From contig CALKCP010000009.1 of assembly GCA_938083445.1 (NCBI GenBank), positions 1 through 64,000 on the forward strand: a stretch of 64,000 bases of DNA. The letters run 5' to 3'. A program made the position numbers and the translations under genes. Below, one piece after another: positions 45,547 to 61,500 of this stretch (its first letter is position 1; every line of letters starts with the position of its first letter). Origin of the DNA: an uncultured Ulvibacter sp. (GTDB taxonomy: Bacteria > Bacteroidota > Bacteroidia > Flavobacteriales > Flavobacteriaceae). A model generated the notes under the pieces. The model worked only from the letters and a program-made list of their open reading frames with translations, did no database searches and was not told the DNA's origin.

Positions 45547-45567
45547 ACACTACGCATGAATTAATAT

Positions 45568-45606
45568 AAAAAACCCTTCCTAGCGTTCTGCTAAGAAGGG
45601 TTTTTT
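45568..45606 (+). terminator. Rho-independent terminator after gldJ
   Basis: AAAAAACCCTTC (45568-45579) pairs with GAAGGGTTTTTT (45595-45606); the loop also holds a small TAGC/GCTA stem. Confidence 0.93.
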
Positions 45607-45621
45607 ACTATTTTTATTTGA

Positions 45622-46902
45622 ATGAAAATTGAAACACTTCATACTTATTTTTTAAAAAGCTCAGGCGTCTGCACAGACACAAGAAACATAAAAGATGGCT
45701 GTCTTTTCTTCGCCCTAAATGGTGATAACTTTAATGGGAATACGTTTACAGAAGAAGCTCTTAATAAGGGCGCAAAACACGTCATTATTGACCAAATAGG
45801 CTATCATAAAAATACCGGAGAAACCATACTAACCTCCAATAGTTTGAAAACTTTGCAAAAGCTGGCTGCCTATCACAGGCTGTTTTTAAAACTACCTATC
45901 ATAGCTATTACTGGAAGTAACGGAAAAACGACTACCAAAGAACTTATGAGTGCTGTGCTCAAACAAAAATTTAATACCGTAGCTACAAAAGGTAATTTAA
46001 ACAATCATATTGGCGTTCCTCTTACGCTTCTTTCCATGTCAAAAAATACGGAAATAGGTATTGTTGAAATGGGTGCCAACAATCCAAATGAAATAGAACA
46101 GCTATGTGATATTGCACGGCCCGATTTTGGATATATCACCAACTTTGGAAAAGCACATTTAGAAGGTTTTGGAAGTATAAAAGGCGTGATTAATGCAAAA
46201 ACAGAGCTTTATCGCCATTTACAAAAACACAACAAATCTGTCTTTGTAAATACGAATGACTCTATACAGCTTAGTCATTCAAAAGAACTACGATGCATTC
46301 GCTTTGGGAATAATACACAAGACACGCATATCGAACTTTTAGAATCATCAAGCAGTCTTAAAGTTATATTCAACAACAGGAGCATCCAGAGCAACCTCAT
46401 TGGGGTTTACAACTTCAGTAATATATCGGCTGCTATCGCCATCGGTGATCACTTTGGAGTTTCTAGTGAGGATATACAGAAGGCTATAGAATCGTATGTC
46501 CCAGAAAACAACCGTTCGCAGTTGCTTGACCTAGGCACGAACAAGATCATCTTAGATGCGTATAACGCGAATCCGTCCAGCATGCTCGCCGCCTTGGAAA
46601 ATTTTAAACAAGCAGCAGGGTTACACAAAGTGCTGTTTCTTGGAGATATGTTTGAATTGGGGCCTGAGGCACTAAAGGAACATCAATATATTACATCATA
46701 TATCGAAGAAAACACGCTTGGACTCGCCTATTTAATTGGAGAAAATTTCGGACAAACGATATCCGATTCGTCCCAAATACATACGTTTGATTCTTTTGAT
46801 GAACTCAAGAACCACATAAAAGAAAATCCTCTAAAAAACAGTCTGATTCTTATTAAAGGATCACGAGGAATGGCGTTAGAAAGGGTTTTGGACCTTCTTT
46901 AA
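45622..46902 (+). CDS. murF: UDP-N-acetylmuramoyl-tripeptide--D-alanyl-D-alanine ligase
   Basis: A 426-residue Mur ligase. N-terminal domain with 'VCTDTRNIKDGCLFFALNGDNFNGN', ATP motif 'IAITGSNGKTTTKELMSAVL' (near residues 94-113), 'TKGNLNNHIGVPLTLL', 'NTEIGIVEMGANNPNEI' and C-terminal 'LDAYNANPSSMLAAL' are the MurF marks. It adds D-Ala-D-Ala in peptidoglycan synthesis. It begins 16 bases after the gldJ terminator; TATTTTTA at 45609-45616 overlaps the gap and could be a minimal promoter with a very short leader. Confidence 0.96.
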   Translation: MKIETLHTYFLKSSGVCTDTRNIKDGCLFFALNGDNFNGNTFTEEALNKGAKHVIIDQIGYHKNTGETILTSNSLKTLQKLAAYHRLFLKLPIIAITGSNGKTTTKELMSAVLKQKFNTVATKGNLNNHIGVPLTLLSMSKNTEIGIVEMGANNPNEIEQLCDIARPDFGYITNFGKAHLEGFGSIKGVINAKTELYRHLQKHNKSVFVNTNDSIQLSHSKELRCIRFGNNTQDTHIELLESSSSLKVIFNNRSIQSNLIGVYNFSNISAAIAIGDHFGVSSEDIQKAIESYVPENNRSQLLDLGTNKIILDAYNANPSSMLAALENFKQAAGLHKVLFLGDMFELGPEALKEHQYITSYIEENTLGLAYLIGENFGQTISDSSQIHTFDSFDELKNHIKENPLKNSLILIKGSRGMALERVLDLL

Positions 46903-47019: not shown

Positions 47020-47781
47020 TTACAAAATAGAGGTCCTACCACCATCAATAACAATAGATTGACCCGTTATCCATTTTGACGCGTTAGAAAGCAAGAAGAT
47101 AACGGGTAATGCAATATCTTTAACTTCCCCATAACCTAGAGGGTATTTGGCACGATCGATATCCATTATATCTTTTGACAATATATTCTCTGCTTGCAAA
47201 GACATATCTGTTTCTACCATGCCCGGTTGGAGCGTATTAACTCTAATGAATTTTGAGGATAGTTCATTTGCATACACTTTACTTATCGTATCTAAGGCTG
47301 ATTTAGTAATAGCATATAATCCATTTCCTTTAGCACCCCTAATTGCAGAAATAGAACTTATAAAAATTACCGATGACTTTTTATTAATTTTCTTTTTCTT
47401 CAACAATTCAGAAAACAATACTAAAACACAATCTAAATTTATTTTTCTTATTTTTTCATACTCACTATAATTAAAAAAATGCATTGGACTTACATTTGCA
47501 ATTCCAGCCGAATGAACAAAACCATCAATTTTTAAATGTAATTCAGACACTAATAAATGAATATCATCTAATGCTGTTAAATCAAATTTGACAGCCTTGG
47601 AAAGCGCTAATTTATTGTCAACGATGAACTGATGTAGGCCTTCAATATTTCTTCCAATACCAATAAAATTACCTCCAGCAACAGTAATTTGTTTGCATAT
47701 TTCAAAACCTATACCGGATGTAGCTCCAGTTACTAAAATTGTTTTATCAATTAAAGAAAAATTATCTTCCTTCATATTCAA
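47020..47781 (-). CDS. SDR-family oxidoreductase, likely 3-oxoacyl-ACP reductase type
   Basis: A 253-residue SDR. NAD(P) motif 'ILVTGATSGIGFEI' at residues 15-28, 'HSAGIANVSP' near 92, catalytic Ser in 'VIFISSISAI' and YxxxK in 'GNGLYAITKSALDTI', with the FabG-like end 'WITGQSIVIDGGRTSIL'. Its start overlaps the end of the KS III gene by 20 bases, so it is the last gene of the acyl-building operon. In this setting it most likely reduces a beta-ketoacyl-ACP to the 3-hydroxy form; that role is inferred from context. Confidence 0.9.
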   Translation of the reverse strand: MNMKEDNFSLIDKTILVTGATSGIGFEICKQITVAGGNFIGIGRNIEGLHQFIVDNKLALSKAVKFDLTALDDIHLLVSELHLKIDGFVHSAGIANVSPMHFFNYSEYEKIRKINLDCVLVLFSELLKKKKINKKSSVIFISSISAIRGAKGNGLYAITKSALDTISKVYANELSSKFIRVNTLQPGMVETDMSLQAENILSKDIMDIDRAKYPLGYGEVKDIALPVIFLLSNASKWITGQSIVIDGGRTSIL

Positions 47782-48823
47782 TCAATTCATTAATAAACCT
47801 ATCACCTATTTCAAAATATCCAGAACCAATACTTAATCCAATACCAAAACCACAAATAGCAAATTTTTTATTTCTTGCATCATCACCTAAAAGTGATAAT
47901 GTAAGAGGGATACTTGCAGAACTTGTGTTTCCGTATTTTATCATTGAATAAGGCATTTGACTCGGATCTAATTTTATTTTTTTTCTAATCATTTCTAACA
48001 TAAACTTATTCGCTTGATGAAAAAGAAAATAATCAATTTCAGAAACTTCCTTATTCAAGTTTTGTAGAAATGATTTTAACACACGCGGAACTTGTGTTAT
48101 ACCAAAAGAAAAAACATCTGTTCCATTCATTTTAGGATTTACCTTAGTTCTTTTACTACCATCTTTATCTTCTACAACTTGCAGTGATTCTTCTGATAAT
48201 ATGTTTCGAAAACCACCATCTGGAATCATGATTGATTTAAATCCAGATCCATCTGTCCAAAGTTTAAATTTTAAATCTTTGCCTTCGTTAAATTCAAAGG
48301 CTGTTGCACAACCCGCATCACCAAATAATGGAGATAATGTTTTATCTTCTTTATGTGCAAGAAGACTAGATGAATCTCCTACTAATAAAATTCCCTTTTT
48401 AAAACCTTGAGATGTTATCATTGATGAAAGAACTGATGCACCGTAGACAAATCCACTGCATCCCAGGGGGATATCAAAACAAGCGGTGTTCTTTGACAAA
48501 CCTAGACGGTTCTGTAAAATTATTGCAGTATTAGGAATTAAATAATCTGGTGTTTGGGTAACCATAATTAAAACTCCTATTTCATCTTTATTCCAAGCTA
48601 ATTTTTTAATTAATAACGCTGCGGCTTCATAACATAAATCTGACACCAAAACACCTGGATCTAAATGTCGTTTTTCTTCAACGCCTGTCATTTCAACAAA
48701 TTTTAATGCTTCGTCAGTAGAGTTGAAAAGTGTATTTTCTAGGTTGGAAATTTTAGTTTTTGGGACGCAACTAACGGAACCTGAAACTTGAACATTAGAT
48801 ATATTTAAGATGCCGTCTGTCAT
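47762..48823 (-). CDS. 3-oxoacyl-ACP synthase III homologue (KS III no. 2 of the surface locus)
   Basis: A 353-residue KS III. The active Cys122 is in 'FDIPLGCSGFVYGAS', His in 'FLFHQANKFMLEM' (near 278) and Asn in 'YGNTSSASIPLT' (near 308); all three catalytic residues are kept. It is about 20-30 residues longer than E. coli FabH, as in KS III enzymes of secondary or surface pathways. It starts 2 bases downstream of a dedicated ACP. Likely role: add a malonyl-derived C2 unit to a carrier-bound acyl group for decorating a surface glycan; the substrate is not known. Confidence 0.92.
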   Translation of the reverse strand: MTDGILNISNVQVSGSVSCVPKTKISNLENTLFNSTDEALKFVEMTGVEEKRHLDPGVLVSDLCYEAAALLIKKLAWNKDEIGVLIMVTQTPDYLIPNTAIILQNRLGLSKNTACFDIPLGCSGFVYGASVLSSMITSQGFKKGILLVGDSSSLLAHKEDKTLSPLFGDAGCATAFEFNEGKDLKFKLWTDGSGFKSIMIPDGGFRNILSEESLQVVEDKDGSKRTKVNPKMNGTDVFSFGITQVPRVLKSFLQNLNKEVSEIDYFLFHQANKFMLEMIRKKIKLDPSQMPYSMIKYGNTSSASIPLTLSLLGDDARNKKFAICGFGIGLSIGSGYFEIGDRFINELIEYEGR

Positions 48824-48825
48824 AA

Positions 48826-49047
48826 TTATTTAGATTGTATTCTCATAAATAAGTTTTCAAGAGTCAGACTTTCTTTGAGATCCGTACCACTTATTTGCTT
48901 TGCGTAATTTTCATCTACCATAGCAATTAACATTAAGGTGACCATAGAATCCCATTCATCTAGATTTTTGAAATCAGTATTTTTATTTATTTCATTTTTT
49001 TCAGTTTCATCTAAAATATCGTAAAAGCTTTCAATAAATTCTTCCAT
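48826..49047 (-). CDS. Acyl carrier protein (no. 2 of the surface locus)
   Basis: A 73-residue acidic protein with the ACP fold. The phosphopantetheine site is Ser34 in 'LDEWDSMVTLMLIAMVDENY', a DSM variant of the usual DSL. It is not the housekeeping AcpP, which has a 'GADSLDTVE' site. It is placed between the hexapeptide transferase and a KS III with gaps of 10 and 2 bases, so it belongs to the acyl-building operon. Confidence 0.9.
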   Translation of the reverse strand: MEEFIESFYDILDETEKNEINKNTDFKNLDEWDSMVTLMLIAMVDENYAKQISGTDLKESLTLENLFMRIQSK

Positions 49048-49057
49048 AATAATTATT

Positions 49058-49714
49058 TTAAATTTTTATTTTTTTTGCGGGCATACCAAAGTAGGTACAG
49101 TTATTTTTGATGTTTTTAAGGATCATTGTATAAGACCATATGTCATTATCATTTCCAATCGTTTTGTTTTGTAAGATTGCAGAATTTAAACCGAATGTAT
49201 TGCCATTGCCAATTACAACATGCCCTGAGACAGAAACTCTAGGAGAGAACGTGTTAAAATTAGCTATTTTCGAATCATGCCCTATTCCAGTTCTAGCTCC
49301 TACAATGTTAAAGTTTCCAATATGAACATTCCCGGTTATACCAACAAAATCCATTATAATATTGCCTTTCCCGATTACACTATTTTCTTTATCAATTACA
49401 ACCGTTTGATCAAAAATATTTGGGAAATTTATTCTAAACTTTTCTTTCTCTAAAACGGCAACAGTACGATTTCTGACTTTAGGGTCATTTATAGTAATTA
49501 ATACGTCCTTTTCAATATCTTTTTCATTCCGGCATTTACTTATAAAGTCATTTATAGTAGAGATGATTTTTATATTTCTAATTTTAGTATCTATTTTTTT
49601 TGGATCGTCATCTATAATATAAATATTACGCCAAACATTTTTGTAAAACCTATCAATCAAAAACAACACTTCTATAGTAAATCCTCCTCCACCGATTATA
49701 TATAAATCTTTCAT
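49058..49714 (-). CDS. PglD/NeuD-like hexapeptide-repeat acyltransferase
   Basis: A 218-residue sugar O/N-acyltransferase. The N-terminal Rossmann-like sugar-nucleotide-binding part starts 'LYIIGGGGFTIEVLFLIDR'. From about residue 100 there is a left-handed beta-helix of hexapeptide repeats ('SVIGKGNIIMDFVGITGNVHIGNFNIVGARTGIGHDSKIANFNTFSPRVSVSGHVVIGNGNTFGLNSAIL') with the likely catalytic His in 'GIGHDSKI'. Relatives acetylate UDP-4-amino-sugars. Here, between two ACPs and two KS III genes, it may use an acyl-ACP rather than acetyl-CoA; that is inference. Confidence 0.9.
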   Translation of the reverse strand: MKDLYIIGGGGFTIEVLFLIDRFYKNVWRNIYIIDDDPKKIDTKIRNIKIISTINDFISKCRNEKDIEKDVLITINDPKVRNRTVAVLEKEKFRINFPNIFDQTVVIDKENSVIGKGNIIMDFVGITGNVHIGNFNIVGARTGIGHDSKIANFNTFSPRVSVSGHVVIGNGNTFGLNSAILQNKTIGNDNDIWSYTMILKNIKNNCTYFGMPAKKIKI

Positions 49715-49717
49715 AAT

Positions 49718-50782
49718 TTAATAATTTATTATTTCGCAAAAATCTAATTTCTCTAATTTCCACTTAATAATACTCCAGGTTAAACCAACACCAAAGCCAC
49801 CAAAACAAACTTTGTACGAATTGTTAAGTGCTTTTTCACCAATGTTTTCGCAAACATTTAAAGGAACTGTAATACTGCTTCCATTTCCATACTTTTGGCT
49901 AATGTTATTAGGCATTTTCTCGTACGGAATTTTCATTTTTTGAGCCAATTTCTCTAACATAAATTTATTAGGTTGATGAAAGAGATAATAATCAAAATAG
50001 GATTTGTCAATTTTTAACGTATCAAACATTTCCTGAATCATTTCAGGAACTTTGGTTTGCACGAAATTAAAAACTTCGTCACCTTTCATTATTAAGTGAT
50101 CTAATGAACGAAAATTACCCGACTCATCTTCTGTCAATACCCCAGTTTGAGGAGTAGAAGGAAGCTTGAAACCACCTGCGGGAATTTGCAAACTCAAGGC
50201 ACTTGATCCGTCCATCTTAATAAACATATCAATTTCCTCATCATCTGTTGAGTTTTCGATAATTGTTATTGTTGCGCCATCACCCACTAAGGGACGACTA
50301 TTTCTATCTTTCAACGAAACTTTTTTGCTCAAAACATCTGCATTTAAAAGGACTACCTTATCAATACTTCCTGTGTTTAAAAGCATAAATGCTTGCATCA
50401 ACCCTACTTCAAAACCCGCACATCCTTGATTGATATCCATCGAAATAACATCTTGTCCTAAAGCAAGTCTTCCAGAAATTACATTTGATGTTGCGGGCAA
50501 AAAATAATCGGGAGATTGAGTGCACAAAACAACGGCTCCAATAGACTCTTTGTCAAGCAAATCTTTTTTAAACAAATAATTCATACCAAAAACACATAAA
50601 TCCGAAACGGTAGTCCCATCTTCGGCAATTCTCTGGCTTCCATAACCCATAATTTTTCCCAGCTTGGCACTTTGTTTTTCGGTAAAATTATAATTGTCTA
50701 TTTCGTCCAAATAATGAACTTCATGCTTGGGAAGAACGGAAAGCATACCAGTTATTTTTTTGTTTTTGAATGACAACTTCAT
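49718..50782 (-). CDS. 3-oxoacyl-ACP synthase III homologue (KS III no. 1 of the surface locus)
   Basis: A 354-residue KS III with Cys121 in 'MDINQGCAGFEVGLM', His in 'YLFHQPNKFMLEK' (near 280) and Asn in 'YGNGSSITVPLN' (near 308). It shares the long N-terminus and general layout with the second KS III of the locus, but many residues differ, so the two are old paralogues rather than a recent copy. It starts 5 bases downstream of an ACP gene. Likely role: condensation on a carrier-bound starter. Confidence 0.92.
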   Translation of the reverse strand: MKLSFKNKKITGMLSVLPKHEVHYLDEIDNYNFTEKQSAKLGKIMGYGSQRIAEDGTTVSDLCVFGMNYLFKKDLLDKESIGAVVLCTQSPDYFLPATSNVISGRLALGQDVISMDINQGCAGFEVGLMQAFMLLNTGSIDKVVLLNADVLSKKVSLKDRNSRPLVGDGATITIIENSTDDEEIDMFIKMDGSSALSLQIPAGGFKLPSTPQTGVLTEDESGNFRSLDHLIMKGDEVFNFVQTKVPEMIQEMFDTLKIDKSYFDYYLFHQPNKFMLEKLAQKMKIPYEKMPNNISQKYGNGSSITVPLNVCENIGEKALNNSYKVCFGGFGVGLTWSIIKWKLEKLDFCEIINY

Positions 50783-50787
50783 GTACG

Positions 50788-51018
50788 TTAGGAGTTACTT
50801 TTATTAATGAGGTCAACAAGTGCTTGTATACTATCAAAGTTTTCGGGGAGAATTTGCGCTCCGTCTATTGCTATATTAAAACTTTCTTCAATGTCTGATA
50901 CTATTGAGATGATATCGAAAGAATCTAACATTCCTTTACTTACAAAACCATCTGTTTCGGTATTAAAATCGAATTCTGGACGAATTTCAGTCAATATTGT
51001 AATTACTTTTTCTTTCAT
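50788..51018 (-). CDS. Acyl carrier protein (no. 1 of the surface locus)
   Basis: A 76-residue ACP. The phosphopantetheine Ser33 is in 'GMLDSFDIISIVSDIEESFNI', a DSF variant seen in DltC-like and specialised carriers rather than in AcpP. Its start overlaps the end of the GNAT-like gene by 4 bases (ATGA), and the adenylation enzyme gene precedes that. An adenylation enzyme next to a DltC-like carrier suggests loading with an amino or carboxylic acid. Confidence 0.9.
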   Translation of the reverse strand: MKEKVITILTEIRPEFDFNTETDGFVSKGMLDSFDIISIVSDIEESFNIAIDGAQILPENFDSIQALVDLINKSNS

Positions 51019-51797
51019 TTTTTTCTATGTAATATATAATTTGTTAGTCCGTCTTCTTTGAACCCCATTTGCTTGTGTGCATGAATTACATTATCGTTTC
51101 CTTGTCTTATCCAAGAAGTAACTCTCTTTATTTCTGGATCAAAAGACAACACTCGTTTCATTAATAAATCTCCGTATCTCCTGCCTCTAAACTCTTCTAA
51201 CACCAACCAATATCTAAATTCTAGAGTTACTCCTTTTTTTTCAGTTATAAAAAAAGCTACTATTTCCAGATCATTTTTAATTATAAAAGTTGTTTCTCTA
51301 AATTCTTTTAACTCTAATACAGATGGAATTTTATCAGTATGTGGACTAAAATTTAATTCTATAAGTTGCTGTATGGAATCAAAGTCTTCATTGTTTGGTT
51401 TTTCTAGGCTACTAAAATCTATACCAGCAACATCTACAATAGTTTGTTCTTTAAAGTATCTATCGTAAACATCATGCACTTTAAAGCCACCCATTTCCTG
51501 AAACGCTTGTATTATTGGAAGCCATTTCTCTTTTTTAGAATTACGAATTACAATTTCAGCAATTAAAGTTTTTTCTTTAAAAATTGCCCAATCAATTTTT
51601 GTAATATCTTGAATGTAAAAATAGAATCGCCAAAATTTATAGCGCGTTTTTTCAATGAACAGCAATGCATTTGATTGCTCCTCGAATAAGACGCCATTTT
51701 TTTCAATCTTACTCGAGACTACTTTACCGGACTCGTATGAATTCGTACAATTAATGCCACGTTTTATTTTTTCTAGATATTTCTCTTTTCTATGCAT
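51015..51797 (-). CDS. GNAT-like acyltransferase domain protein
   Basis: A 260-residue protein. The C-terminal part (about residues 150-260) has a GNAT-like acyl-CoA site 'YWLVLEEFRGRRYGDLLMKRVLSF' (R-G-x-x-Y-G variant) and a final 'NDNVIHAHKQMGFKEDGLTNYIL', typical of GNAT ends. The N-terminal half resembles a second degenerate GNAT-like fold ('FYFYIQDITKIDWAIFKEKTLIAEIVIRN'), so it may be a tandem GNAT. It lies between the adenylation and ACP genes, 9 bases after the first and with a 4-base overlap with the second. It may acylate the amino group of a carrier-bound amino acid; this is a hypothesis. Confidence 0.75.
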   Translation of the reverse strand: MHRKEKYLEKIKRGINCTNSYESGKVVSSKIEKNGVLFEEQSNALLFIEKTRYKFWRFYFYIQDITKIDWAIFKEKTLIAEIVIRNSKKEKWLPIIQAFQEMGGFKVHDVYDRYFKEQTIVDVAGIDFSSLEKPNNEDFDSIQQLIELNFSPHTDKIPSVLELKEFRETTFIIKNDLEIVAFFITEKKGVTLEFRYWLVLEEFRGRRYGDLLMKRVLSFDPEIKRVTSWIRQGNDNVIHAHKQMGFKEDGLTNYILHRKK

Positions 51798-51806
51798 CGG
51801 CCTATC

Positions 51807-53330
51807 TTAAACCATGCTTTTTAAGGCTTTTCGATCAATTTTCCCATTGGCATTTAGAGGAAATTTTTGCATAGTAATCCATTTTGTCGGAATCATATAT
51901 TTTGGCAAGGAATGTGAAAGTTTTTTCCTGATTTGAGCACTTGTTTCATAGTGGTTAATGAATGCCACAATTTTTTTTTGGTTATCATTATATAAAACAC
52001 ATGCATTTCCTACTGCCTTGATTCCTGAAATTGCTGTTTCAATTTCACCCAATTCAATACGATAACCTAAATGCTTAATTTGTGAATCTTTTCTGCCCAC
52101 AAAAACAATATCATTTAAGTCATTTTCATACACTAAATCACCTGTTTTATAAACAACGTCTGAATAGGTATTATGTAATGGATTTTGCACGAATACTTCT
52201 TTGGTTTTTTCGATATCATTATAATAACCAAGCGCCAATAAGGAGCCTCTTAGGTATAATTCTCCCGTCTCTCCCTTTTTTATTAATTGTCCTTTATCAG
52301 AAAGGATTAGGGTTTGGGTATTTTTACAGGCCTTTCCTATAGGTAAAGGCTCATCGTCTTTAAAGGCTCGATTCACGATAAAATAGGTGGCTATAACTGT
52401 AATTTCGGTTGGCCCATATAGGTTTGAATATAAGGCGTTGGGATGATGTTTACGCCAATAGTTTAAATGTTTATTGGACATTACTTCACCAGCAAATAAG
52501 ATTTTTTCTAATGATGAAGGTTTTATTACTGAAAAGGCGTCAAAATTAGAAACACTATTTAACACTGATGGCACCCAGAAAATAAAATTGATGTTTTTTT
52601 CGTTCACATATTCAATCAATTTGATAGGGAAAGCAAAGCGATCTTCTGGAATAATCTGCAGTGTAGCCCCAGTAAAAACCATTAAATAAATGTCTAAAAC
52701 TGACATATCAAAATAAAATGGAACTTGGTTGCCTATACTCGTTTTATTACTTAAATCGTAGGTTGTAATGGCCCATTCTATAAAATCAATAACGCCTCTA
52801 TGAGAAATTAAAACACCTTTGGGAGCACCTGTAGATCCTGATGTAAAAATTGAATAAATTGGATCTAAATCTATAATAGAATTCGCTATATGATCTAGCC
52901 TTGTCATTTCAGCATCAGAGATTGAAACATCCAAAACAGTTTCAATACAACTGATGTTTCCTTTATATCCTAAGTTGATTAATTCTTCCTTGTGTTCAAA
53001 ATCTGTAATAATCAAATCGGCCCTAAGTGTCTGAATAATTTTTAACACATGGCCCCCAGCGGATTTTGTGTTTAAAGGAATGTAAAAATTACCACTTTTA
53101 AATATTCCGATAAATGACGCTACAGACCATCGGTTTTTGGGCAAATAAACAGCAATAGGTTGATTTCGCCCCTTTGTTTTAGAAATGATTTCTACTGCAA
53201 TTTGGTCGGATATTTTATTGAGCTCTGCAAATGACAACACAGCTTGATTATCATCAATTGCTGTATTATCAGGAAACTTAGCTACTGTATTGTTAAAATA
53301 TTCAGTGAGATTATTTTTCATTGTTGCCAT
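51807..53330 (-). CDS. Stand-alone adenylation enzyme (DltA-like amino-acid:carrier ligase)
   Basis: A 507-residue ANL-superfamily enzyme. The P-loop 'IFTSGSTGAPKGVLISHRG' is at residues 161-179, A5 is 'NLYGPTEITVIATYF', A7 'YKTGDLV', A8 'FVGRKDSQIKHLGYRIELGEIE' and A10 'NANGKIDRKAL' with the catalytic Lys. Asp208 in 'FYFDMSVLDIYLMVFTGATL' is at the place where amino-acid-activating domains hold the alpha-amino group, and the segment resembles DltA, which loads D-alanine on DltC. No carrier or condensation domain is attached; the carrier is the separate ACP downstream. It is the first gene of the acyl-building operon. ATG 53330 or the ATG three codons later may be used. Confidence 0.93.
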   Translation of the reverse strand: MATMKNNLTEYFNNTVAKFPDNTAIDDNQAVLSFAELNKISDQIAVEIISKTKGRNQPIAVYLPKNRWSVASFIGIFKSGNFYIPLNTKSAGGHVLKIIQTLRADLIITDFEHKEELINLGYKGNISCIETVLDVSISDAEMTRLDHIANSIIDLDPIYSIFTSGSTGAPKGVLISHRGVIDFIEWAITTYDLSNKTSIGNQVPFYFDMSVLDIYLMVFTGATLQIIPEDRFAFPIKLIEYVNEKNINFIFWVPSVLNSVSNFDAFSVIKPSSLEKILFAGEVMSNKHLNYWRKHHPNALYSNLYGPTEITVIATYFIVNRAFKDDEPLPIGKACKNTQTLILSDKGQLIKKGETGELYLRGSLLALGYYNDIEKTKEVFVQNPLHNTYSDVVYKTGDLVYENDLNDIVFVGRKDSQIKHLGYRIELGEIETAISGIKAVGNACVLYNDNQKKIVAFINHYETSAQIRKKLSHSLPKYMIPTKWITMQKFPLNANGKIDRKALKSMV

Positions 53331-53803
53331 AAATTATCGTGCAGCCTGTATTTCAAGATACCTTGATTTTTATTCATGAAAACAACAAAAAAACTATACA
53401 CCAAATACTTTGTACCCAATAATCAATATAAATGCCCAATACAAGGAGTTAGATACAATTAAATTACTGCTTCAAAAAATAAAAAGAACACCCGTCAACA
53501 GCTTTGTTGTAGTGTTGTATGGGTTATTATTACAATTGATGTAGTCTTTTTGTCAGATATGTATTTTAAACACATGAAATAAATGAATAATATATTATCA
53601 ATCATCTAGCTTTTTTGAATAGAGGCATTGCATTTATAATGAAGAATTTGATGTTTTTTTTGCACTTGTATTTAAGATAAAAGGATTGGCTTCTTGCACT
53701 GCCTTTAACAAAACACTTTTAATAACTAAAACAGATGCTCGTAATAACAGTACTGTAAGTAAAATAATAAAGTCGATGAATCTTATAAAATAGTATCTAG
53801 ATA
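53331..53803. other. 473-base gene-free region upstream of the acyl-building operon
   Basis: Very AT-rich. No ORF with believable composition was found on either strand (the longest plus-strand frame at about 53625-53800 has no start codon). The stretch 53501-53519 contains TTGTTGTAGTGTTGTA, similar to a stretch at 63511-63530. It probably contains the promoter of the minus-strand operon that starts at 53330, but no consensus element was identified with confidence. Confidence 0.5.
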
Positions 53804-54940
53804 TTAAACATTTTGATTATAAAATTCCACCCATTTTTTTGATATGGTTTGGGCTGAAAAGTTCTTCAAGACATATTCTCTTCCTCCTTTGCCTAATGCC
53901 AATCTTAGATCTTGATTATGAAGTAATTTCTCCATAGCGAAATATAGAGAATCAACATCTGCAACTTTATGCCTTAATCCAGTTTTTTGGTCAATAATAG
54001 TTTCCATAAGCCCATAAGTATCACTACAAATTATTGGTTTTTCTAAAAGGGAGGCCTCTATAACACTTGTGCCAAAACCTTCTCTGTAACTAGGCATACA
54101 AAATACATCACAGGCTTGTAATAACCGTTCTGGTGTTAATGTAACTCCATAAAAAATAACAGCCTTATCGACATTTACTTTTTGCTTTACTAATGGCGCC
54201 ATATTTTCTTCATCTTCACCAACTAACAATAAAAGAGCATTATTATATTTTTTTTTAATTGTACTAAAAGCCTCAGCCAATTCATTTATACCTTTATCCG
54301 TATTCATTCTGCCTAAAAACATAAATACTACTTCATCTTTCTTTATTCCTAATTCTTCTCTAACTTCCTTTTTCATTATTACGCTTGGTACAAACCTCTT
54401 TGTATCTACACCACTTATGGACCCTTTACCTAAAACAAAAGAATTGGATTCTTCAACTATTTTATTCTTAATTAAAAATTGCCTTTGAGATTCTCCATCA
54501 ACCAAAATGTGAGTTGTATTCCAAACTAAGAAACGATCTAAAAACATTAAAAAAGTCTTAATAAAGCCCGTTTTTGTATGCCAAACTTGACCTGTAAAAA
54601 TATGGATTCTTGTACGTACACCTCCTAAGCGCGCGGCTAAAATGCCTAACAAACCAACTTTTGGCGTTACTGTATGCACTGCATCAAACTTCATTTCTAT
54701 AAAATAAGTTCGTAAATGTAATACCGCACGAACATCTTTCACCAAACTTACATTCCTCGGTATTGCTATATTTTTTATGCCTTTTATTGGCAGCTCTTTT
54801 AAAAAAGGCATTGCTATCTCTTCGTAGTTCCCGACTAAATAAATATCAAAATGAACGTTTAATTCCTGAATATGATTCATTAGAAATACTTTTGCTGTAC
54901 CCAAGGAAGAAACCACAAAACATATTTTTTTTCTTTTCAT
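53804..54940 (-). CDS. Family 4 glycosyltransferase
   Basis: A 378-residue GT-B glycosyltransferase. N-terminal domain with 'FDAVHTVTPKVGLLGILAARLGGVRTRIHIFTGQVWHT', which resembles PglA/WbnK-like transferases using lipid-linked acceptors; C-terminal donor domain with 'FMFLGRMNTDKGINELAEAF', 'LLLVGEDEE' and the EX7E motif in 'PSYREGFGTSVIEASLLEKPIICSDTYG'. It adds a sugar to the undecaprenyl-linked unit on the cytoplasmic face. It is the only glycosyltransferase in this locus within the window. Confidence 0.94.
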   Translation of the reverse strand: MKRKKICFVVSSLGTAKVFLMNHIQELNVHFDIYLVGNYEEIAMPFLKELPIKGIKNIAIPRNVSLVKDVRAVLHLRTYFIEMKFDAVHTVTPKVGLLGILAARLGGVRTRIHIFTGQVWHTKTGFIKTFLMFLDRFLVWNTTHILVDGESQRQFLIKNKIVEESNSFVLGKGSISGVDTKRFVPSVIMKKEVREELGIKKDEVVFMFLGRMNTDKGINELAEAFSTIKKKYNNALLLLVGEDEENMAPLVKQKVNVDKAVIFYGVTLTPERLLQACDVFCMPSYREGFGTSVIEASLLEKPIICSDTYGLMETIIDQKTGLRHKVADVDSLYFAMEKLLHNQDLRLALGKGGREYVLKNFSAQTISKKWVEFYNQNV

Positions 54941-55008
54941 AATGAAAGCTATTGATTTAGAATATCTCTTTAAAAATTATTAAAGCAATCCATAAAAAAG
55001 ATGACTCA

Positions 55009-56277
55009 TTAAATGCTACTATTTTTCCTTTCAAAAAAATAAATCATAATAATATAAATGGTTAACATGGTTAAACTAATGTAGTTTGCATATACAAAGC
55101 ATTTAGATAGTAGTATAGCATCGCCGACGACATCTAATCTAATAAATACAACAAAAAAACATATCGTTAACCCCTCTCTTAGGAATCTAAAGAAAAGATA
55201 ACTCCATCTTTTCTTTATAGAAATTAAATACTGAAGTAACACAAGACTGGAACAGAATGGTAAAACACCGTAGATTAAATAAATAAATACCTCGGTGCCA
55301 TTTTCTTCAAAATCGGGTCCAAAAAGCGAGAAAATTTGGTTAGAAAAAATATAAAAAACAAAACCAATAAAACCAGACAGCAATAAATTTAGAAGAACTG
55401 TTTTAACTAAAAATCGTTCCTTATTAATTTCAGTAGATAAATAGGAGAGTAAAATATTATTTAATAAATTAGGTATAAAAACAATAAACATAACCATTCG
55501 CATGGCCACGTTATAAATACCTAACTCTTCAAAATTTGCAGTCTGAATTAAAGCTATGGACGTTAAAAACGCTGTAAAAGTCACTAATATTTCACCAATG
55601 CCTATTGGGAAAGAAAAAGCATACAGTTGTTTTAAGTCATTTTTTATGTCATTAAAATCCCTTTTGTTAAATTGATTCTTCTCTTTTAAATAAATATAAA
55701 AAAACTGTATCGTAAAGTGAAGAAACAAAGCGACAAAGACCCCCATTATTCCGTATTTGTAACCAAAAATATAGGCTAGTGGTAAATAAAATAGCACCGA
55801 AATAATTACAGACTTAAAGTATGTTTTTAAAGACTTAATGCCTATAAAATAGCCTTCAATAAAGATAACTAGCACATTTAATAAAATTGAGGATGCAAAA
55901 ATTATTAGGAAAAATACATTGTAAGAAAAATTATAATCAGCTAGTAATTGGTCTCTTACAAACACACTAATTATAAATAGTAATATGATAATTAGTATCA
56001 CGAATTTAATGACACTTATAAGCTTAACCAGACCGTCACTTTTATTAATTGCAGAAAAGTATATTAGAGATTTATCTCCTCCGAACAAAATAAAAACAAT
56101 TAAAACATCGAATGCCTGCCTTAAAAAAGCGTATTCCCCAAATAGTTTAGGGCCAAAAAGACGAGCCAACAGCAATGCAACAATTAAAAAAGCCCCTTTT
56201 TGAATAAAATTAGCGGCAATTGAAAGAATTCCATCTCCATATTTATGCTTAGTGGTTTTAATGAATTTTTTTATCAT
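55009..56277 (-). CDS. wzx: O-antigen/polysaccharide flippase (Wzx-type)
   Basis: A 422-residue protein with 12 or more hydrophobic helices and a MATE/MVF-like start 'GILSIAANFIQKGAFLIVALLLARLFGPKLFGEYAFLRQAFDVL', typical of the PST/Wzx family. It flips lipid-linked repeat units across the inner membrane. The start overlaps the upstream polytopic gene by 20 bases. Confidence 0.92.
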   Translation of the reverse strand: MIKKFIKTTKHKYGDGILSIAANFIQKGAFLIVALLLARLFGPKLFGEYAFLRQAFDVLIVFILFGGDKSLIYFSAINKSDGLVKLISVIKFVILIIILLFIISVFVRDQLLADYNFSYNVFFLIIFASSILLNVLVIFIEGYFIGIKSLKTYFKSVIISVLFYLPLAYIFGYKYGIMGVFVALFLHFTIQFFYIYLKEKNQFNKRDFNDIKNDLKQLYAFSFPIGIGEILVTFTAFLTSIALIQTANFEELGIYNVAMRMVMFIVFIPNLLNNILLSYLSTEINKERFLVKTVLLNLLLSGFIGFVFYIFSNQIFSLFGPDFEENGTEVFIYLIYGVLPFCSSLVLLQYLISIKKRWSYLFFRFLREGLTICFFVVFIRLDVVGDAILLSKCFVYANYISLTMLTIYIIMIYFFERKNSSI

Positions 56278-57586
56278 TCCATATAGCGAGTTTGTTCTGT
56301 TTAATACTTTGAGAAAAAAGGACTGCGATTAATAAAGCCGGGAAAATTTTGGATCTATGCCTCATAGCGGTTCCTGAGTTATCTGTTGCCATGCCAAAGC
56401 CTAAGGCAATTGTTAAGAATAAAAAAAGAAATATTTTAGGAAATATTCTACGTGTATCTTCACGGAGAAAATTTCTACTTTGTACGAGTTTATAGACTAA
56501 AAAGTAGTAAAAAGAGCTGTCGAATAAAATTGCAATTAAGCTACCTACCCCTCTTATATCGTATGGCATTGGTGAAAAAATAAAGTAAATTAACCTCAAA
56601 GGCATTAATGCTATAAAACTATACGCAGAGTTTACTTTAAAATTAGTTAAGTAAGTGGACCCTCCAACATCAACTACCCTCGTGTTAAATTTTTCAGCTA
56701 AACTCAGATTTTCACCTAAAAATATAAATGAGAGCTTACCACTTAAAAGTGACATGTTATTTATGATCAAAACAAATACCAAAGCGGAAAGTGAAACTAA
56801 CAAAATTGTATTCTTAACAGAAAAATTAAATGTGTGTGTGTGCGTGTCAAAGTATAAAAACATTAATCCATAAAAAACAATTCCAAGCATCATTCCAGGA
56901 TGAAACATTGCACTTAGTAGAGCAAAAATTAAAGTTGTTATAATGTGGGTCTTATCATTTGACCTTAGCCATTTTGTAAAAAATAATAAACTATAGATAA
57001 AAAAGAATTGAATCAAAGCCTCTCTTAATAGTATAGAAGAAAATATGATATTATGTGGGTATAAACCATACAAAGCTAAAAGCAATAATTTCTTAGATTC
57101 TTTTAATTTAAAGAGATCCAAAATATTATAGAAAATAAAAATGGACCACATTCCTAGAATTAAATTTATGAATTGAGAAAACAGTCTTTGATCACCAATG
57201 AACCAATACACCAAACCTAAGAAATCGGTATATTTAGTATATGAAATCTCTTTCATTTTACTTAAATCCTCAGAAATAAGTCTTGCCAAATTATAAAAAT
57301 TTTCTGAATCATTACCGCTATGCAGCACATATCCAATGTCTCTGCCATAATAATCAAAGTAGAGTAATACTACTCTTAAACAGAAAAATATAAATATTAG
57401 AAGTTGAACTTTTTTATTTTTAAAACCACATGCCACTAAGAATACCAAAAAAAATATGATATTAAATCCTACTAATACATTAGCTAAATATTGATGATCT
57501 ATAAAATATTTACAGAAAAAAGAAATAACAACGCTGAAAATCAGTGTTGTTATAAAAAACTTTTCAGCTAATTTTAAATATATCAT
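56258..57586 (-). CDS. Polytopic membrane protein, likely O-antigen polymerase (Wzy-like)
   Basis: A 442-residue protein from the preferred ATG at 57584-57586 (MIYLKLAEKFF); a frame 14 codons longer begins at 57628. It has ten or more hydrophobic segments and a large loop near residues 75-130 ('FDYYGRDIGYVLHSGNDSENFYNLARLISEDL'), a layout found in Wzy/EpsG-type polymerases. Sequence identity among such proteins is low, so the call rests on position between the wzx and wzz genes and topology. A (CA)6 run encodes the 'THTHT' stretch at 56831-56842. Confidence 0.7.
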   Translation of the reverse strand: MIYLKLAEKFFITTLIFSVVISFFCKYFIDHQYLANVLVGFNIIFFLVFLVACGFKNKKVQLLIFIFFCLRVVLLYFDYYGRDIGYVLHSGNDSENFYNLARLISEDLSKMKEISYTKYTDFLGLVYWFIGDQRLFSQFINLILGMWSIFIFYNILDLFKLKESKKLLLLALYGLYPHNIIFSSILLREALIQFFFIYSLLFFTKWLRSNDKTHIITTLIFALLSAMFHPGMMLGIVFYGLMFLYFDTHTHTFNFSVKNTILLVSLSALVFVLIINNMSLLSGKLSFIFLGENLSLAEKFNTRVVDVGGSTYLTNFKVNSAYSFIALMPLRLIYFIFSPMPYDIRGVGSLIAILFDSSFYYFLVYKLVQSRNFLREDTRRIFPKIFLFLFLTIALGFGMATDNSGTAMRHRSKIFPALLIAVLFSQSIKQNKLAIWNDKKIH

Positions 57587-57628
57587 TTCAGTATTAGATC
57601 GATTTATTACCTGTATTAAACTGCACAA

Positions 57629-57937
57629 TCAATTAAATTAGCCTATAAACACTCTTCTAAAATAACTATAAAAACGAGGGCTTTCTTTAATTATATCGTT
57701 TCGTCATTAACACATAATTATTCAAACACCACGTTGGACTCTCTTATTTAAAAGCCAAGAATAATTTGTCCTGTTTAGAATATCCTTGTTTGTAAAATAA
57801 TTTTTGAATTTCCTTGAATACAAAATCTTGCCTAGTTAACTTGAACAAATGGGCAAAATAACCTTGGCATAAAAACACATATTAGATTATAAACAAATCA
57901 ATCTTAAGGCCAATTCCTATGTCGAATGTGATGTCAA
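57629..57937. other. Gene-free gap between the wzy-like and wzz genes
   Basis: 309 AT-rich bases (or 351 if the shorter wzy-like start is used). No ORF, hairpin with T tract, or consensus TAnnTTTG element was seen on the minus strand. It separates the export genes from the rest of the region and may hold a promoter. Confidence 0.45.
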
Positions 57938-59002
57938 TTATTCCATTATTTGTTTAAAAAACACCTTTAAAATTAAATAAAGTAAGGCAATCATTAAGCC
58001 AGCGATACCTCCTATAACAACACCAACTAACTTGCCAATTTTCTCTTTTTCTAATGGTAAAATAGGTTTGTCAATCACTTGAATAAGCGGAATTTCTTTT
58101 CGTAATGCGACTTTAGCTAACTCGGACTGTTTCACTAATTCTTTTAGAATAGCAGTATTAGCTTGCACATCTACTTTTTTACGAGAAGTAGTTGTCCTAT
58201 TTACATTCAAGGCTGGATTTAGATTAAATGTATTATCTACAGAAACGGCAACTTCAGCTATCGCAGTGTTCAATTGTTCACGAATAGAATCTGTCTGTTT
58301 GGTTAAAATTTCTACATTTTGTCGCGATTTTTTACTTTTATAATCAATGTAAAAGTTAGAAACTTGGTCTGCCAAGGCTTCTGTAAATTGCTTCGCAAAT
58401 AATTCGCTAGAAGATTTTAAATTTATCGTTACAATTGCAATCTTTTTATCCTTTTGAGAAACATCTAAATTGCTTTTAGAAAGTTCTTCATAGATTACTC
58501 CCAAAATACTATCCTGAGCGCGACTAAAGTCTGAGCGGGTTGCATTTGCTGAAAACTGAATTCCTTTTAATGAGGTGGTTTTTTCCCAGTTAGTGCGCCA
58601 ACCTTCGTTCTGAATATACATTTCTGCCAATGATATTTTTTGGCTTTCGAAAACAATGGGTGTTAATAAGGTTTTTTCTACCATATTACGAGACAGAAAA
58701 AGTTCGGGTAAGTTAGAACTTGAAAATGCACCACCACTGTTACTTCCACCCAATTCAATAGCAAAAGATCCTATGTTTAAATCCCCAACACCGCCAGGAC
58801 TAGTGTCTTCCAGTGCAAAAGATAAAGACGCAGTATAAACGGGCTTTTCTACATATGAATAAACCAGGCCTAAAACTGCTCCTATTATCATAGCAATAAT
58901 AATCGTTTTACGTCGATACATTAAGTACTCCCAAAATCCTTTTACTCGCATAACTATATCTTTAACAGATGGTTCATCGTTTGTATTTTGGTTAAGTTCC
59001 AT
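57938..59002 (-). CDS. Wzz-type polysaccharide chain-length determinant
   Basis: A 354-residue protein with an N-terminal transmembrane helix ('KTIIIAMIIGAVLGLVYSYVEKPVYTASLSFALE', about residues 33-60), a periplasmic coiled-coil region, a Pro-rich 'VIDKPILPLEKEKIGKLVG' motif and a C-terminal helix ('VVIGGIAGLMIALLYLILKVFF'). This is the polysaccharide co-polymerase layout, without a tyrosine kinase domain. It controls polymer length with Wzy. It lies 19 bases after the SLBB export gene. Confidence 0.92.
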   Translation of the reverse strand: MELNQNTNDEPSVKDIVMRVKGFWEYLMYRRKTIIIAMIIGAVLGLVYSYVEKPVYTASLSFALEDTSPGGVGDLNIGSFAIELGGSNSGGAFSSSNLPELFLSRNMVEKTLLTPIVFESQKISLAEMYIQNEGWRTNWEKTTSLKGIQFSANATRSDFSRAQDSILGVIYEELSKSNLDVSQKDKKIAIVTINLKSSSELFAKQFTEALADQVSNFYIDYKSKKSRQNVEILTKQTDSIREQLNTAIAEVAVSVDNTFNLNPALNVNRTTTSRKKVDVQANTAILKELVKQSELAKVALRKEIPLIQVIDKPILPLEKEKIGKLVGVVIGGIAGLMIALLYLILKVFFKQIME

Positions 59003-59021
59003 GCTAAAAGTTTGAGATTTG

Positions 59022-61403
59022 TTAATTAAAAGCTGTGATAAGTAACAAAGTCATGCTTGTAATGATGCTTCCAATACTCACAATTTCAAGGGCATTCAAT
59101 TTATTGCGTTCAGGCTTTTCAGGAATAATGATTTGTGAACCAGGGGTCACCTTCGGTCTATTGTGAATGAATAAAAAAGATTTTGTAGTTGCTGCTTTCC
59201 CATTTGGATAAATAACATACGCTTTTCTAGTCCATCCTTTAGAATCTGCCCCACCTACCGCATCTAAATAATGTTTTAGGCCTTTACCTTTGTTATAAGG
59301 AATTTCAGATGTTAAAAGGACATTACCTGTCACTTTTACACCTTCCCTAAAAGTTCTCACTTCAATCACGTCTCCTGGAAATATGGTAACATTGGTATAG
59401 CTATTTTGATTCTTTTGAATTTCTTTCCAATCTACAGGTATTGTAGCATGTTTGGTTTTAGCCATTATCTTTTTTTGAATAGAATCTTCTCCTTTACCTA
59501 AATTTAAATCAACATTCTGCATGTCTCCAATCTGCTCTAAATCTATAGGTCTAAGTACTTTTACACCTTCAATATTCGCTATAGAAGATAGTCCTCCCGC
59601 TCTTATGATCAAATCATAAATTTTTTCTTTTTTGTTCACCAGCGCATATCGTCCAGGATAATTTATAGCTCCCTTTATTGTTACCATCTCTGGCTTTTCA
59701 TAAACAGGCATTTTTCGTATGCTTACTACATCAAACGGTTTTAAGCGAACGTTTTTTGCTTGTTCATTATCAGCTGGAGAAATTTCTAATCTAATTAATT
59801 CTACCCTATTACCATTCAAATCATCAACTGAGTCTAATTGTATCATCCGTGCCACTTCCACGTGCTTTGATGCCGATCCAGAAAGGCCTCCTGCTTGAAC
59901 CAATAAATCATTTAAGGTGAGGTTTTCATAATATTGATATACGCCTGGCCTATTAATTTCGCCATCAATTGTAATCTTAAAATCTTCTTTAAAAGTAAGA
60001 CTAGAATATATGTTCACACGATCTTCCTTTTTCAAAATAACATTTGATTCAGAATCACCCTTTAGTGCTTTTGCAAGATTGACATTCACGATTTCTGTAG
60101 TTAAATCGGATTTAACCCTAATAATTGTAGCTCTATTGGTATACGCATCTTCTTTTAAACCATCAGCTTTAGTGATTAGGTCTAAAATGCGCATCCCTTC
60201 ACTAAACGAATATGTATTTGGGCGAAAAACGGCTCCTTCAATAGTAATTCTATTTTCAAAACGATCTAAAATTTTTGAAACTTTGAATGCATCCCCTAGT
60301 TTCGGAGTATAGACGTTAAATTCACTGGCCTTCAAATCCTTCACTTTAAATTCTTTGTCTGTTTTTTGAATCACGCTCACGGACGCTTTGTAAGCCATGT
60401 CGTTAAATCCAGACGCAAATTTTAGTAAATCATCAAATGTTTCGCCCTCTTTTATTTCAAAAATACCTGGACGTTTAACTTCACCCTCCAAGCTCACTCT
60501 ATTTTTGTAGGCTGGAATCCGTATCACATCATTATCTTTTAGCCCCACATTATCCGTTTGGTCTCCACTAACTAAAAAATTGTAAATATCTATTTTTCGT
60601 ATTACTTCATTATTTCGAAGCAACTCAATGTTTCTATACGTTTTATTCGATCCAGGGCCACCACCTAAAAAGAGCGCATTGTAAACCGTTCCTAAAGAAG
60701 ATATAGAATAATTACCTGGTTGTTTACTTCCTATTAAGGTTATTTTGATGGTTCTAATGCGACTCAGGCTAATCTCAACTTTCGACTGTCCAGAAGCTAC
60801 GGTAGTATAAACCCTGGCAATGGCCTTTTTTATCTTTTGGGAGGCTGCCTCAAAACTCAAATTCAAAACTGATAGCTGACCTACATTTTGGATATTCACT
60901 TTTCCCTCAACACTTACTGGAATATTTGCACTAAACTCTTGCACTCCAAAAACAATTACTTGTAATTCATCACCAGGGCCTAGAATATAATTCATCGGAC
61001 TTGCAATCTTTAAGTTCGGCTCAAAATTTAGTGATGGATTGTCAAATAATTCTGATCCGAAAATAATTGCATTCTCATCATCTTTTATCTTTGTGTTCTT
61101 AACGACCTCTTGTTTTCGAATAGATTCAGATTCATTTGCCTGAATCATTGAAGATTCCATTCGCAATTTCAATTTGACAAACTGTTCTGAAGTCATTCCC
61201 CTGTCTGAAGCCAATGCCATCACATCTTCAATAGTTAGCTTTTTTGCTTCTAGCTGAGATCTGAAAGTTGCAATATCTTCGTCGCTAAGAGTATTGATTT
61301 CTAAGGTGCTTAAATCTGGGCTTTCTATTAAATCCTGAGCCTGAGTCAAAATTGTTTGAAAAAGAACAAAAGTTAATAAAAGGAAAGTGATTTTTTTATT
61401 CAT
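59022..61403 (-). CDS. SLBB-domain polysaccharide export protein (Wza-like)
   Basis: A 793-residue protein from the preferred start at 61401-61403 (MNKKITFLLLTFVLFQTILTQAQ signal peptide). A poly-export domain is visible at 'YILGPGDELQVIVFGVQEFSANIPVSVEGKVNIQNVGQLSV' (near residue 140-180), followed by about six SLBB repeats ('RVSLEGEVKRPGIFEIKEGETFDDLLKFASGFN', 'RITIEGAVFRPNTYSFSEGMRILDLITKADGL', 'KITIDGEINRPGVYQYYENLTLNDLLVQAGGL'), and a C-terminal membrane helix. It forms the outer-membrane channel for the polymer. First gene of the export pair with wzz. Confidence 0.93.
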   Translation of the reverse strand: MNKKITFLLLTFVLFQTILTQAQDLIESPDLSTLEINTLSDEDIATFRSQLEAKKLTIEDVMALASDRGMTSEQFVKLKLRMESSMIQANESESIRKQEVVKNTKIKDDENAIIFGSELFDNPSLNFEPNLKIASPMNYILGPGDELQVIVFGVQEFSANIPVSVEGKVNIQNVGQLSVLNLSFEAASQKIKKAIARVYTTVASGQSKVEISLSRIRTIKITLIGSKQPGNYSISSLGTVYNALFLGGGPGSNKTYRNIELLRNNEVIRKIDIYNFLVSGDQTDNVGLKDNDVIRIPAYKNRVSLEGEVKRPGIFEIKEGETFDDLLKFASGFNDMAYKASVSVIQKTDKEFKVKDLKASEFNVYTPKLGDAFKVSKILDRFENRITIEGAVFRPNTYSFSEGMRILDLITKADGLKEDAYTNRATIIRVKSDLTTEIVNVNLAKALKGDSESNVILKKEDRVNIYSSLTFKEDFKITIDGEINRPGVYQYYENLTLNDLLVQAGGLSGSASKHVEVARMIQLDSVDDLNGNRVELIRLEISPADNEQAKNVRLKPFDVVSIRKMPVYEKPEMVTIKGAINYPGRYALVNKKEKIYDLIIRAGGLSSIANIEGVKVLRPIDLEQIGDMQNVDLNLGKGEDSIQKKIMAKTKHATIPVDWKEIQKNQNSYTNVTIFPGDVIEVRTFREGVKVTGNVLLTSEIPYNKGKGLKHYLDAVGGADSKGWTRKAYVIYPNGKAATTKSFLFIHNRPKVTPGSQIIIPEKPERNKLNALEIVSIGSIITSMTLLLITAFN

Positions 61404-61500
61404 ATGTCGCAATAGTATTCAATGTTTTATAACAACTCAAAGGAAAAAAAGAATGGGTTTTGCAACGCACCGTTTTTGTAAAAACTAACTAATTATAAAA

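Follow-up and report, generated by a model that had tools for sequence, protein, structure and literature searches.

A putative hybrid operon for an unusual N-acyl group in a surface polysaccharide locus of an uncultured Ulvibacter

Why would a surface polysaccharide locus carry two ketosynthases, two acyl carrier proteins and an enzyme that activates amino acids? The question is raised by eight open reading frames (ORFs) on the minus strand at 47020-53330 of the window, by which we mean the whole 64,000-base stretch analyzed, C9:1-64000 of contig C9 (66,902 bases), from an uncultured Ulvibacter sp. whose genome assembly comprises 2.3 Mb in 38 contigs and is 93.8% complete. The answer comes in parts of unequal strength. 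We have high confidence in the general claim that an acyl group built on a carrier protein is placed on an amino sugar. With moderate confidence, we favor an operon that joins a starter module of the non-ribosomal peptide synthetase (NRPS) type to an extension module of the type II fatty acid synthesis (FAS) type, making an unusual N-acyl group for the surface polysaccharide. The most likely form of this is a version of the 3,5-dihydroxyhexanoyl pathway of Flavobacterium psychrophilum in which an N-acetylated amino acid takes the place of the starter and the product goes to UDP-Qui2NAc4N. The eight genes, in the order of transcription, are as follows.

51807..53330, minus strand: stand-alone adenylation enzyme, 507 aa (Pfam AMP-binding, NCBIfam TIGR01733)
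51015..51797, minus strand: tandem-GNAT protein, 260 aa (Pfam GNAT)
50788..51018, minus strand: acyl carrier protein 1 (ACP1), 76 aa (Pfam PP-binding, Ser33)
49718..50782, minus strand: ketosynthase 1 (KS1), KS III type, 354 aa (Cys-His-Asn; the query defining the cassette family)
49058..49714, minus strand: PglD/NeuD-like acyltransferase, 218 aa (Pfam PglD_N, Hexapep)
48826..49047, minus strand: ACP2, 73 aa (PP-binding below cut-off, Ser34)
47762..48823, minus strand: KS2, KS III type, 353 aa (Pfam ACP_syn_III)
47020..47781, minus strand: short-chain dehydrogenase/reductase (SDR), 253 aa (Pfam adh_short_C2, YAITK)

The ORF list bears out the position, strand and tight packing given in an initial annotation of this DNA, with intergenic gaps in transcription order of +9, -4, +5, +3, +10, +2 and -20 bases, the very range of -20 to +10 that it had claimed; the SDR frame opens at a TTG codon, with an ATG two codons further in. 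Pfam agrees with its gene identities as well, reading AMP-binding, GNAT, PP-binding, ACP_syn_III, PglD_N plus Hexapep, PP-binding, ACP_syn_III and SDR along the operon. Two of the assignments have a weak point: ACP2 scores 18.0 bits against a PP-binding cut-off of 20.8, which ACP1 passes at 22.2, and the PglD-like protein, with PglD_N at 28.7 bits (cut-off 23.4) and Hexapep at 37.9 (cut-off 27), stands at 136.9 bits under the 160.8 demanded by TIGR03570 (PglD/NeuD). The catalytic residues are where that annotation had read them. Alignment finds Cys-His-Asn in both KS III enzymes and throughout their families (80/80 KS1 rows and 16/16 KS2 rows); the phosphopantetheine serine is Ser33 in ACP1 and Ser34 in ACP2, the latter, within EWDSM, picked by eye from the translation, the motif search having chosen another serine; and the reductase (adh_short_C2, 136.8 bits) has a glycine motif and, for the YxxxK that was claimed, YAITK. 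We predict from these features that the SDR is a 3-oxoacyl-ACP reductase.

What would the first enzyme load? It scores 203 bits for AMP-binding, passes TIGR01733 (amino acid adenylation domain) narrowly at 318.4 bits against 317.4, and contains all the adenylation motifs searched for. Its pocket code, DMLFLALVI, comes with Asp235, which we take to be the residue that binds the alpha-amine of an amino acid substrate; since Asp235 is retained, here and in every aligned relative except those of three loci (L083, L089 and L092), an alpha-amino acid is the expected substrate. By a hand count from alignments, the code has 6 of its 9 positions in common with the prolyl ligase PigI and 3 of 9 with DltA (3fcc). 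DltA was considered as the identity of the enzyme and rejected, with TIGR01734 at 308.8 bits against a cut-off of 559.85 and different pocket residues; the FCGE motif of DltA reads FAGE here and lacks the cysteine, presumably a residue of the DltA pocket. An Asp331 in the code of relatives might signal serine; the window enzyme has Ile331. For loading onto ACP1 we predict an alpha-amino acid whose side chain is non-polar, such as proline or alanine.

Is the arrangement peculiar to this genome? A KS1 profile scan of named genomes gave 131 relatives, the best 80 of which were kept, and these cross phyla (judged from record titles, mostly Bacteroidota, with some Bacillota, Acidobacteria and others). 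In the family to which the window belongs, KS1 orthologues of 54-68% identity occur in 6 of 298 other genomes, the next match falling to 34%. In L045, FkbH takes the place of the adenylation enzyme; the other five loci hold the full set of adenylation enzyme, ACP1, KS1, ACP2 and PglD-like gene. The recurring order is the adenylation enzyme, a slot filled by a GNAT, a formyltransferase or nothing, then ACP1, KS1 and ACP2, followed by SDRs and a metallo-beta-lactamase-fold protein in some arrangements and by the PglD-like gene, and since a cassette-like order recurs in dozens of genomes, it is not due to chance. In the FkbH loci L096, L109, L113 and L115, KS1 lies near the starter carrier, directly adjacent in L096 and one or two genes away in the other three. 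A small Glyoxalase_4-family protein is encoded beside the carrier in two FkbH loci (L066:7287-7688 and L113:8432-8854). In L083, L089 and L092, KS1 follows an acyl ligase-like enzyme, an Fe-alcohol dehydrogenase and a LuxE-LuxC fusion (the last two tested in L083 only), apparently another type of starter.

The slot behind the adenylation enzyme bears on what happens to the loaded amino acid. AlphaFold2 models the GNAT protein of the window confidently as a tandem GNAT fold (pLDDT 89.8), for which VIA-align 2 returns the mycothiol synthase MshD at the top (Z 18.0, rmsd 4.2, 245 aligned), MAB_4324 second (Z 17.6) and the sugar acetyltransferase WecD lower (Z 14.9, rmsd 3.4, 194 aligned). These matches to the model would fit N-acetylation of an amine, with the acceptor not named by the fold; a phmmer search of the protein against the PDB gave nothing useful. 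A motif search finds RGRRYG, which we take to be the coenzyme A (CoA)-type motif of GNAT proteins. A single-sequence search of 98 other relatives and of the 298 other family genomes gave no full-length match, the family genomes yielding five partial GNAT-domain matches; the notion of a unique gene was dropped when an iterated profile recovered 34 relatives in the KS1 neighborhoods, and no rarity is claimed.

Over 79 loci (the 80 named, minus L112, which has no KS1 ORF above 45% identity), the slot holds a GNAT in 27, a formyltransferase in 10, nothing in 21 and something else in 4, and 17 have no adenylation enzyme in reach; L123 and L097, in which GNAT or adenylation genes are oppositely oriented, are entered as none and as no adenylation enzyme. 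Of the formyltransferases, those of L040, L042, L074 and L125 were run against Pfam and exceed its cut-off; the remaining assignments come from a home-made profile. A quick KS1 tree has 80 rows (78 named, the window and L041, with L099, whose KS is split into two ORFs, left out along with L112), and 23 of its 77 inner branches are weak; on it, the three slot states switch at least 14 times. The window groups there with L052, which is cut by a contig end, and L053 (Aureivirga marina), its nearest neighbor with an uncut cassette, which has a formyltransferase in the slot. Moreover, the commonest pocket code in the named loci, DNLFLALVD, is found with a GNAT (5), with a formyltransferase (4) and with neither (9); thus, what fills the slot can vary while that code stays constant. 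An association of GNAT with SDR (22/27 vs 1/21, p 5.7e-8) was rejected as evidence, the tree leaving one independent starred pair.

The most telling slot gene is L074:7904-9004 of Bacteroides luti, where a formyltransferase is fused in one open frame with an ACP1-type carrier (Formyl_trans_N plus PP-binding; 46% identity along the whole of ACP1; sequence free of N). The fusion argues that the slot probably caps a carrier-bound amino acid. Loci of other starter types have neither enzyme: a GNAT or formyltransferase occurs in 0/6 FkbH-only loci (two of them short) and in 0/3 LuxE-type loci. On this reading, the amino group of aminoacyl-ACP1 would be capped by whichever enzyme fills the slot, with acetyl as the cap in the window. 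The L074 fusion may then be a natural analogue of the F-A-PCP logic (formylation domain, adenylation domain, peptidyl carrier protein) of the linear gramicidin synthetase LgrA, whose F domain, according to PMC5053139, formylates carrier-bound valine and so lets elongation proceed. There, and by our reading in the window, an adenylation enzyme, a carrier and an amine-capping enzyme would work jointly ahead of elongation. Unlike LgrA, the window proteins are stand-alone and a GNAT replaces F, formyltransferases filling the slot only in relatives, and elongation would be by KS III enzymes rather than by peptide condensation.

Does KS1 look like an enzyme that takes its starter from a carrier? Trp32, Arg36 and Thr37, which we take to be the CoA-binding clamp of FabH, are all present in the 18/18 housekeeping FabH sequences of the family. 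Trp32 and Arg36 are found in none of the 80 KS1 rows and none of the 16 KS2 rows, and Thr37 in 0/80 and 11/16 (one KS1 row has a gap there). Neither enzyme reaches TIGR00747 (FabH), with KS2 at 154.4 and KS1 at 153.5 bits against a cut-off of 292.1. The loss of the clamp is weakly consistent with a carrier-bound starter for KS1. N-terminal extensions of KS1 in L122 and L125, inspected by eye, do not look like ACPs. For the extender, a Trichococcus locus (L091) has an AccA gene (NF041504, 331.4 bits vs 300) and an AccD gene (by eye) directly upstream of its adenylation gene, which fits malonyl use. Near the same cassette, L091:13030-13902 resembles a 3-keto-5-aminohexanoate cleavage enzyme, below the family cut-off.

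For the extension module there is a precedent, named in the initial annotation and real: in the account of F. psychrophilum (PMC6519341), the R group is 3,5-dihydroxyhexanoyl on Qui2NAc4N, UDP-Qui2NAc4N is the proposed acceptor, and the genes are wfpC and wfpE (KS), wfpD (ACP), wfpF (reductase) and wfpG (PglD homologue). Kinship was judged by that described gene content, with the sequences of L172 as a stand-in. PglD, ACP2, KS2 and SDR of the window share 47%, 51%, 55% and 57% identity with their L172 counterparts and stand in like order except for a Rieske protein, and L172 also has FnlA/B/C, RmlC/D/A, PglC, PglE and PglF-like genes (the Fnl and Rml names by eye), the kinds reported for F. 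psychrophilum (PMC6519341). Like the window, the wfp locus combines a pair of KS with an ACP, a reductase for 3-ketoacyl-ACP and a PglD homologue among polysaccharide genes. The two differ in that the account of wfp names no adenylation enzyme, capping enzyme or second ACP, and in that pglE and pglF lie in the locus there and on another contig, C22, here. The suggestion that the starter is unlike that of F. psychrophilum is, thus, supported by an adenylation enzyme and a capping enzyme in the starter position. Rieske oxygenases lie inside the acyl modules of two O-antigen-type loci (L172:8424-9512 and L171:9425-10522), which suggests further oxidation of the acyl chain.

The PglD-like enzyme is predicted to move the chain to a sugar amine. 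It has the PglD_N and hexapeptide domains of Campylobacter PglD/NeuD and differs in lying below the NCBIfam cut-off and in its predicted donor, acyl-ACP rather than acetyl-CoA. The Campylobacter Cj1307/Cj1308 locus was considered as a possible parallel, on which the literature search gave nothing usable. Near the L059 cassette an aminoglycoside 3-N-acetyltransferase-like protein (L059:11034-11882; Antibiotic_NAT, tested in this locus only) is encoded, and other loci have genes of like size (279-292 aa); such a protein may replace PglD there.

Where, then, is the sugar? Contig C22 encodes, one after another, a PglC-like sugar transferase, a PglE-like aminotransferase (its nearest family being LegC, with 368 bits under a cut-off of 420) and a PglF-like dehydratase, and no PglD; in L170, L177 and L179 the order is PglC-ACP-KS2-SDR-PglD-PglE-PglF, so that C22 has the outer genes without the ACP-KS2-SDR-PglD module seen between them. 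The sole PglD_N match found in the genome is the PglD-like protein of the window. On contig C9 there is no DegT-family match, and no PglE or PglF is among the window-side ORFs examined. C23 carries another amino-sugar set, FdtA and DegT, along with a hexapeptide-type protein that has no PglD_N, and UDP-Qui2NAc4N is, therefore, the likelier and not the only acceptor. The surroundings were scored for those 54 of the 79 loci that span at least 15 kb and, as controls, for 15 housekeeping FabH neighborhoods of like length; the controls are all from the family of the window, whereas the loci belong to a number of phyla. When single sequences of this genome serve as queries, PglC/PglE/PglF-like genes are near 37/54 loci and 0/15 controls. 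Profiles partly trained on these loci give 38/54 vs 0/15 with PglD excluded, and 49/54 vs 0/15 when PglD, itself a member of the cassette, is included. Three Flavobacterium loci (L098, L102 and L107) encode Wza and Wzz of 54-61% identity upstream of their cassettes. The central proposal of the initial annotation, that a short hydroxyacyl or aminoacyl chain made on a carrier is put on an amino sugar by the hexapeptide protein, thus gains support from the likeness to L172, the C22 set without PglD and the sugar genes near relatives, all of them comparative data.

From the observed gene content, catalytic residues, cassette recurrence, sugar-gene link and cap enzyme-ACP1 fusion, we infer a pathway of six steps. 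The adenylation enzyme would charge ACP1 with an alpha-amino acid whose side chain is non-polar (1), and the GNAT would N-acetylate the aminoacyl-ACP1, as formyltransferases would formylate it in relatives (2). KS1 would join the capped aminoacyl-ACP1 with malonyl-ACP2, the SDR reducing the ketone (3), and KS2 and the SDR would carry out a second round (4). With the PglF- and PglE-like enzymes of C22 supplying UDP-Qui2NAc4N, the PglD-like enzyme would transfer the chain to the 4-amine of this sugar (5), and the PglC-like enzyme, GT4, Wzx and the export proteins would assemble and export the glycan (6). The expected group is a chain of the 6-acetamido-3,5-dihydroxyhexanoyl type, for which the calculated acyl increments would be +187.08 (Gly), +201.10 (Ala) or +227.12 Da (Pro).

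Several observations weigh against this pathway. Its steps rest on comparison, and the amino acid, the number of rounds and the glycan are predictions. The pocket code, nearer to the prolyl ligase PigI than to DltA, does not single out one amino acid. Arg151 is kept in 78/80 KS1 rows, and since the KS2-type enzymes of one-KS cassettes, with no obvious carrier-bound starter, also have neither Trp32 nor Arg36, loss of these two is no proof of an ACP-bound starter. Two loci, L084 and L088, carry a GNAT or formyltransferase without an adenylation enzyme in the stretch covered (on the other strand). Between adenylation enzyme and KS1, 21 of the 79 loci have no capping enzyme, and 20 of these 21 have no SDR after; hence, cap and local reductase are both dispensable in some cassettes. 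The genes for the sugar are on a different contig of an assembly that is 93.8% complete, and the hexapeptide-type protein of C23 is a possible other acyltransferase for the C22 sugar.

The same genes can be read in other ways. The two carriers might serve separate blocks, with an amino acid on ACP1 and a 3-hydroxyacyl chain made on ACP2 by KS and SDR, the GNAT joining them through an amide and PglD attaching an N-(3-hydroxyacyl)aminoacyl group. Such a product has been described, N-[(S)-3-hydroxybutyryl]-D-alanyl on the Qui4N of E. coli O123 (PMC10609480), the one-KS cassettes of L170, L177 and L179 have ACP-KS2-SDR-PglD, and one GNAT subgroup is without the CoA-type motif by eye. We nevertheless consider joined blocks unlikely, for the slot also holds formyltransferases, which are not expected to form such an amide, KS1 lies near the starter carrier in FkbH loci (L096, L109, L113 and L115) where no amine is expected, and the GNAT of the window retains the CoA-type motif.

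If the GNAT instead acetylated the sugar amine, the amine of the chain would stay free. WecD, a TDP-fucosamine acetyltransferase, is indeed among the structural matches, and 21/79 cassettes are uncapped, but the conserved slot adjoins ACP1, the formyltransferase of L074 is fused to ACP1, and neither enzyme type appears in the 6 FkbH-only (two short) or 3 LuxE loci, all of which makes acetylation of the sugar quite improbable. Adenylation-ACP-KS sets occur in natural-product clusters, and 17/54 long loci have no PglC/E/F-like gene in the stretch covered, so the product might be a diffusible metabolite or a lipid, its place in the polysaccharide locus being due to chance. We regard this as very unlikely, given a PglD-like enzyme encoded within the operon, PglC/E/F-like genes beside 37/54 relatives vs 0/15 controls, and Wza/Wzz upstream of the cassette in L098, L102 and L107.

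The extended, N-acetylated amino acid that we favor has relatives at the starter end in the tetronate FkbH/glyceryl-ACP pathways, where, by the account in PMC7489565, a FabH-like enzyme takes an ACP-bound C3 starter. FkbH likewise replaces the adenylation enzyme in several cassette relatives. The tetronate enzymes described there (PMC7489565) differ in closing a ring and releasing a polyketide; here, a linear acyl chain on a sugar is inferred. The N-acyl groups covered by PMC3210612 and PMC10609480 are mostly acetyl, formyl, hydroxybutyryl and amino acids, with a few odd ones; they include N-acetylalanyl, N-(3-hydroxybutyryl)alanyl, D-glyceroyl, substituted 5-oxoprolyl and 3,5-dihydroxyhexanoyl, and an N-capped, C2-extended amino acid is not among the reviewed groups in the parts of these sources consulted. 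Narrow text searches of the open-licence literature, by title and abstract, found no description of such a cassette or product, which is weak evidence.

Tentatively, and with somewhat less conviction than for the operon itself, we suggest that stand-alone hybrid NRPS/type II FAS lines are widespread and put N-capped, C2-extended amino acids (statine-like beta-hydroxy acyl groups) on surface glycans, with parts freely swapped: the starter (amino acid, glyceryl, LuxE-type), the cap (acetyl, formyl, none), the number of extensions and the final acyltransferase. If so, antigenic diversity would arise from the shuffling of assembly lines, and many bacteria would make richer N-acyl groups by a modular line, half peptide synthetase and half fatty acid synthesis. 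The diversity of O-antigens and capsules would be explained in part, serotype-level predictions could be made from sequence, and the cassettes would be a source of small soluble enzymes that couple an amino acid to malonyl units.

Upstream of the operon, the window contains the following.

53331..53803: gap of 473 bases, 27% GC, presumed promoter region (from ORF positions, sequence and GC)
53804..61412, minus strand: context genes GT4, Wzx, an unassigned 456-aa protein, Wzz and a Wza-type export protein (Pfam)

The flanks described in the initial annotation stand for GT4, Wzx, Wzz and the Wza-type export protein, all of which exceed their Pfam cut-offs (Wzz narrowly, 26.7 vs 25.5). Its "Wzy-like" gene does not: the 456-aa protein at 56258-57628 has no match in Pfam or NCBIfam, and the label is a guess. 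Putative genes for PorV, PorU, GldJ and MurF adjoin the polysaccharide locus at 38640-46902 of the window, the first three named by eye, with an FGE-sulfatase domain and a Mur ligase recognized by Pfam. At the edge of the locus, a 580-aa protein (61501-63243) has a type IX secretion C-terminal sorting domain.

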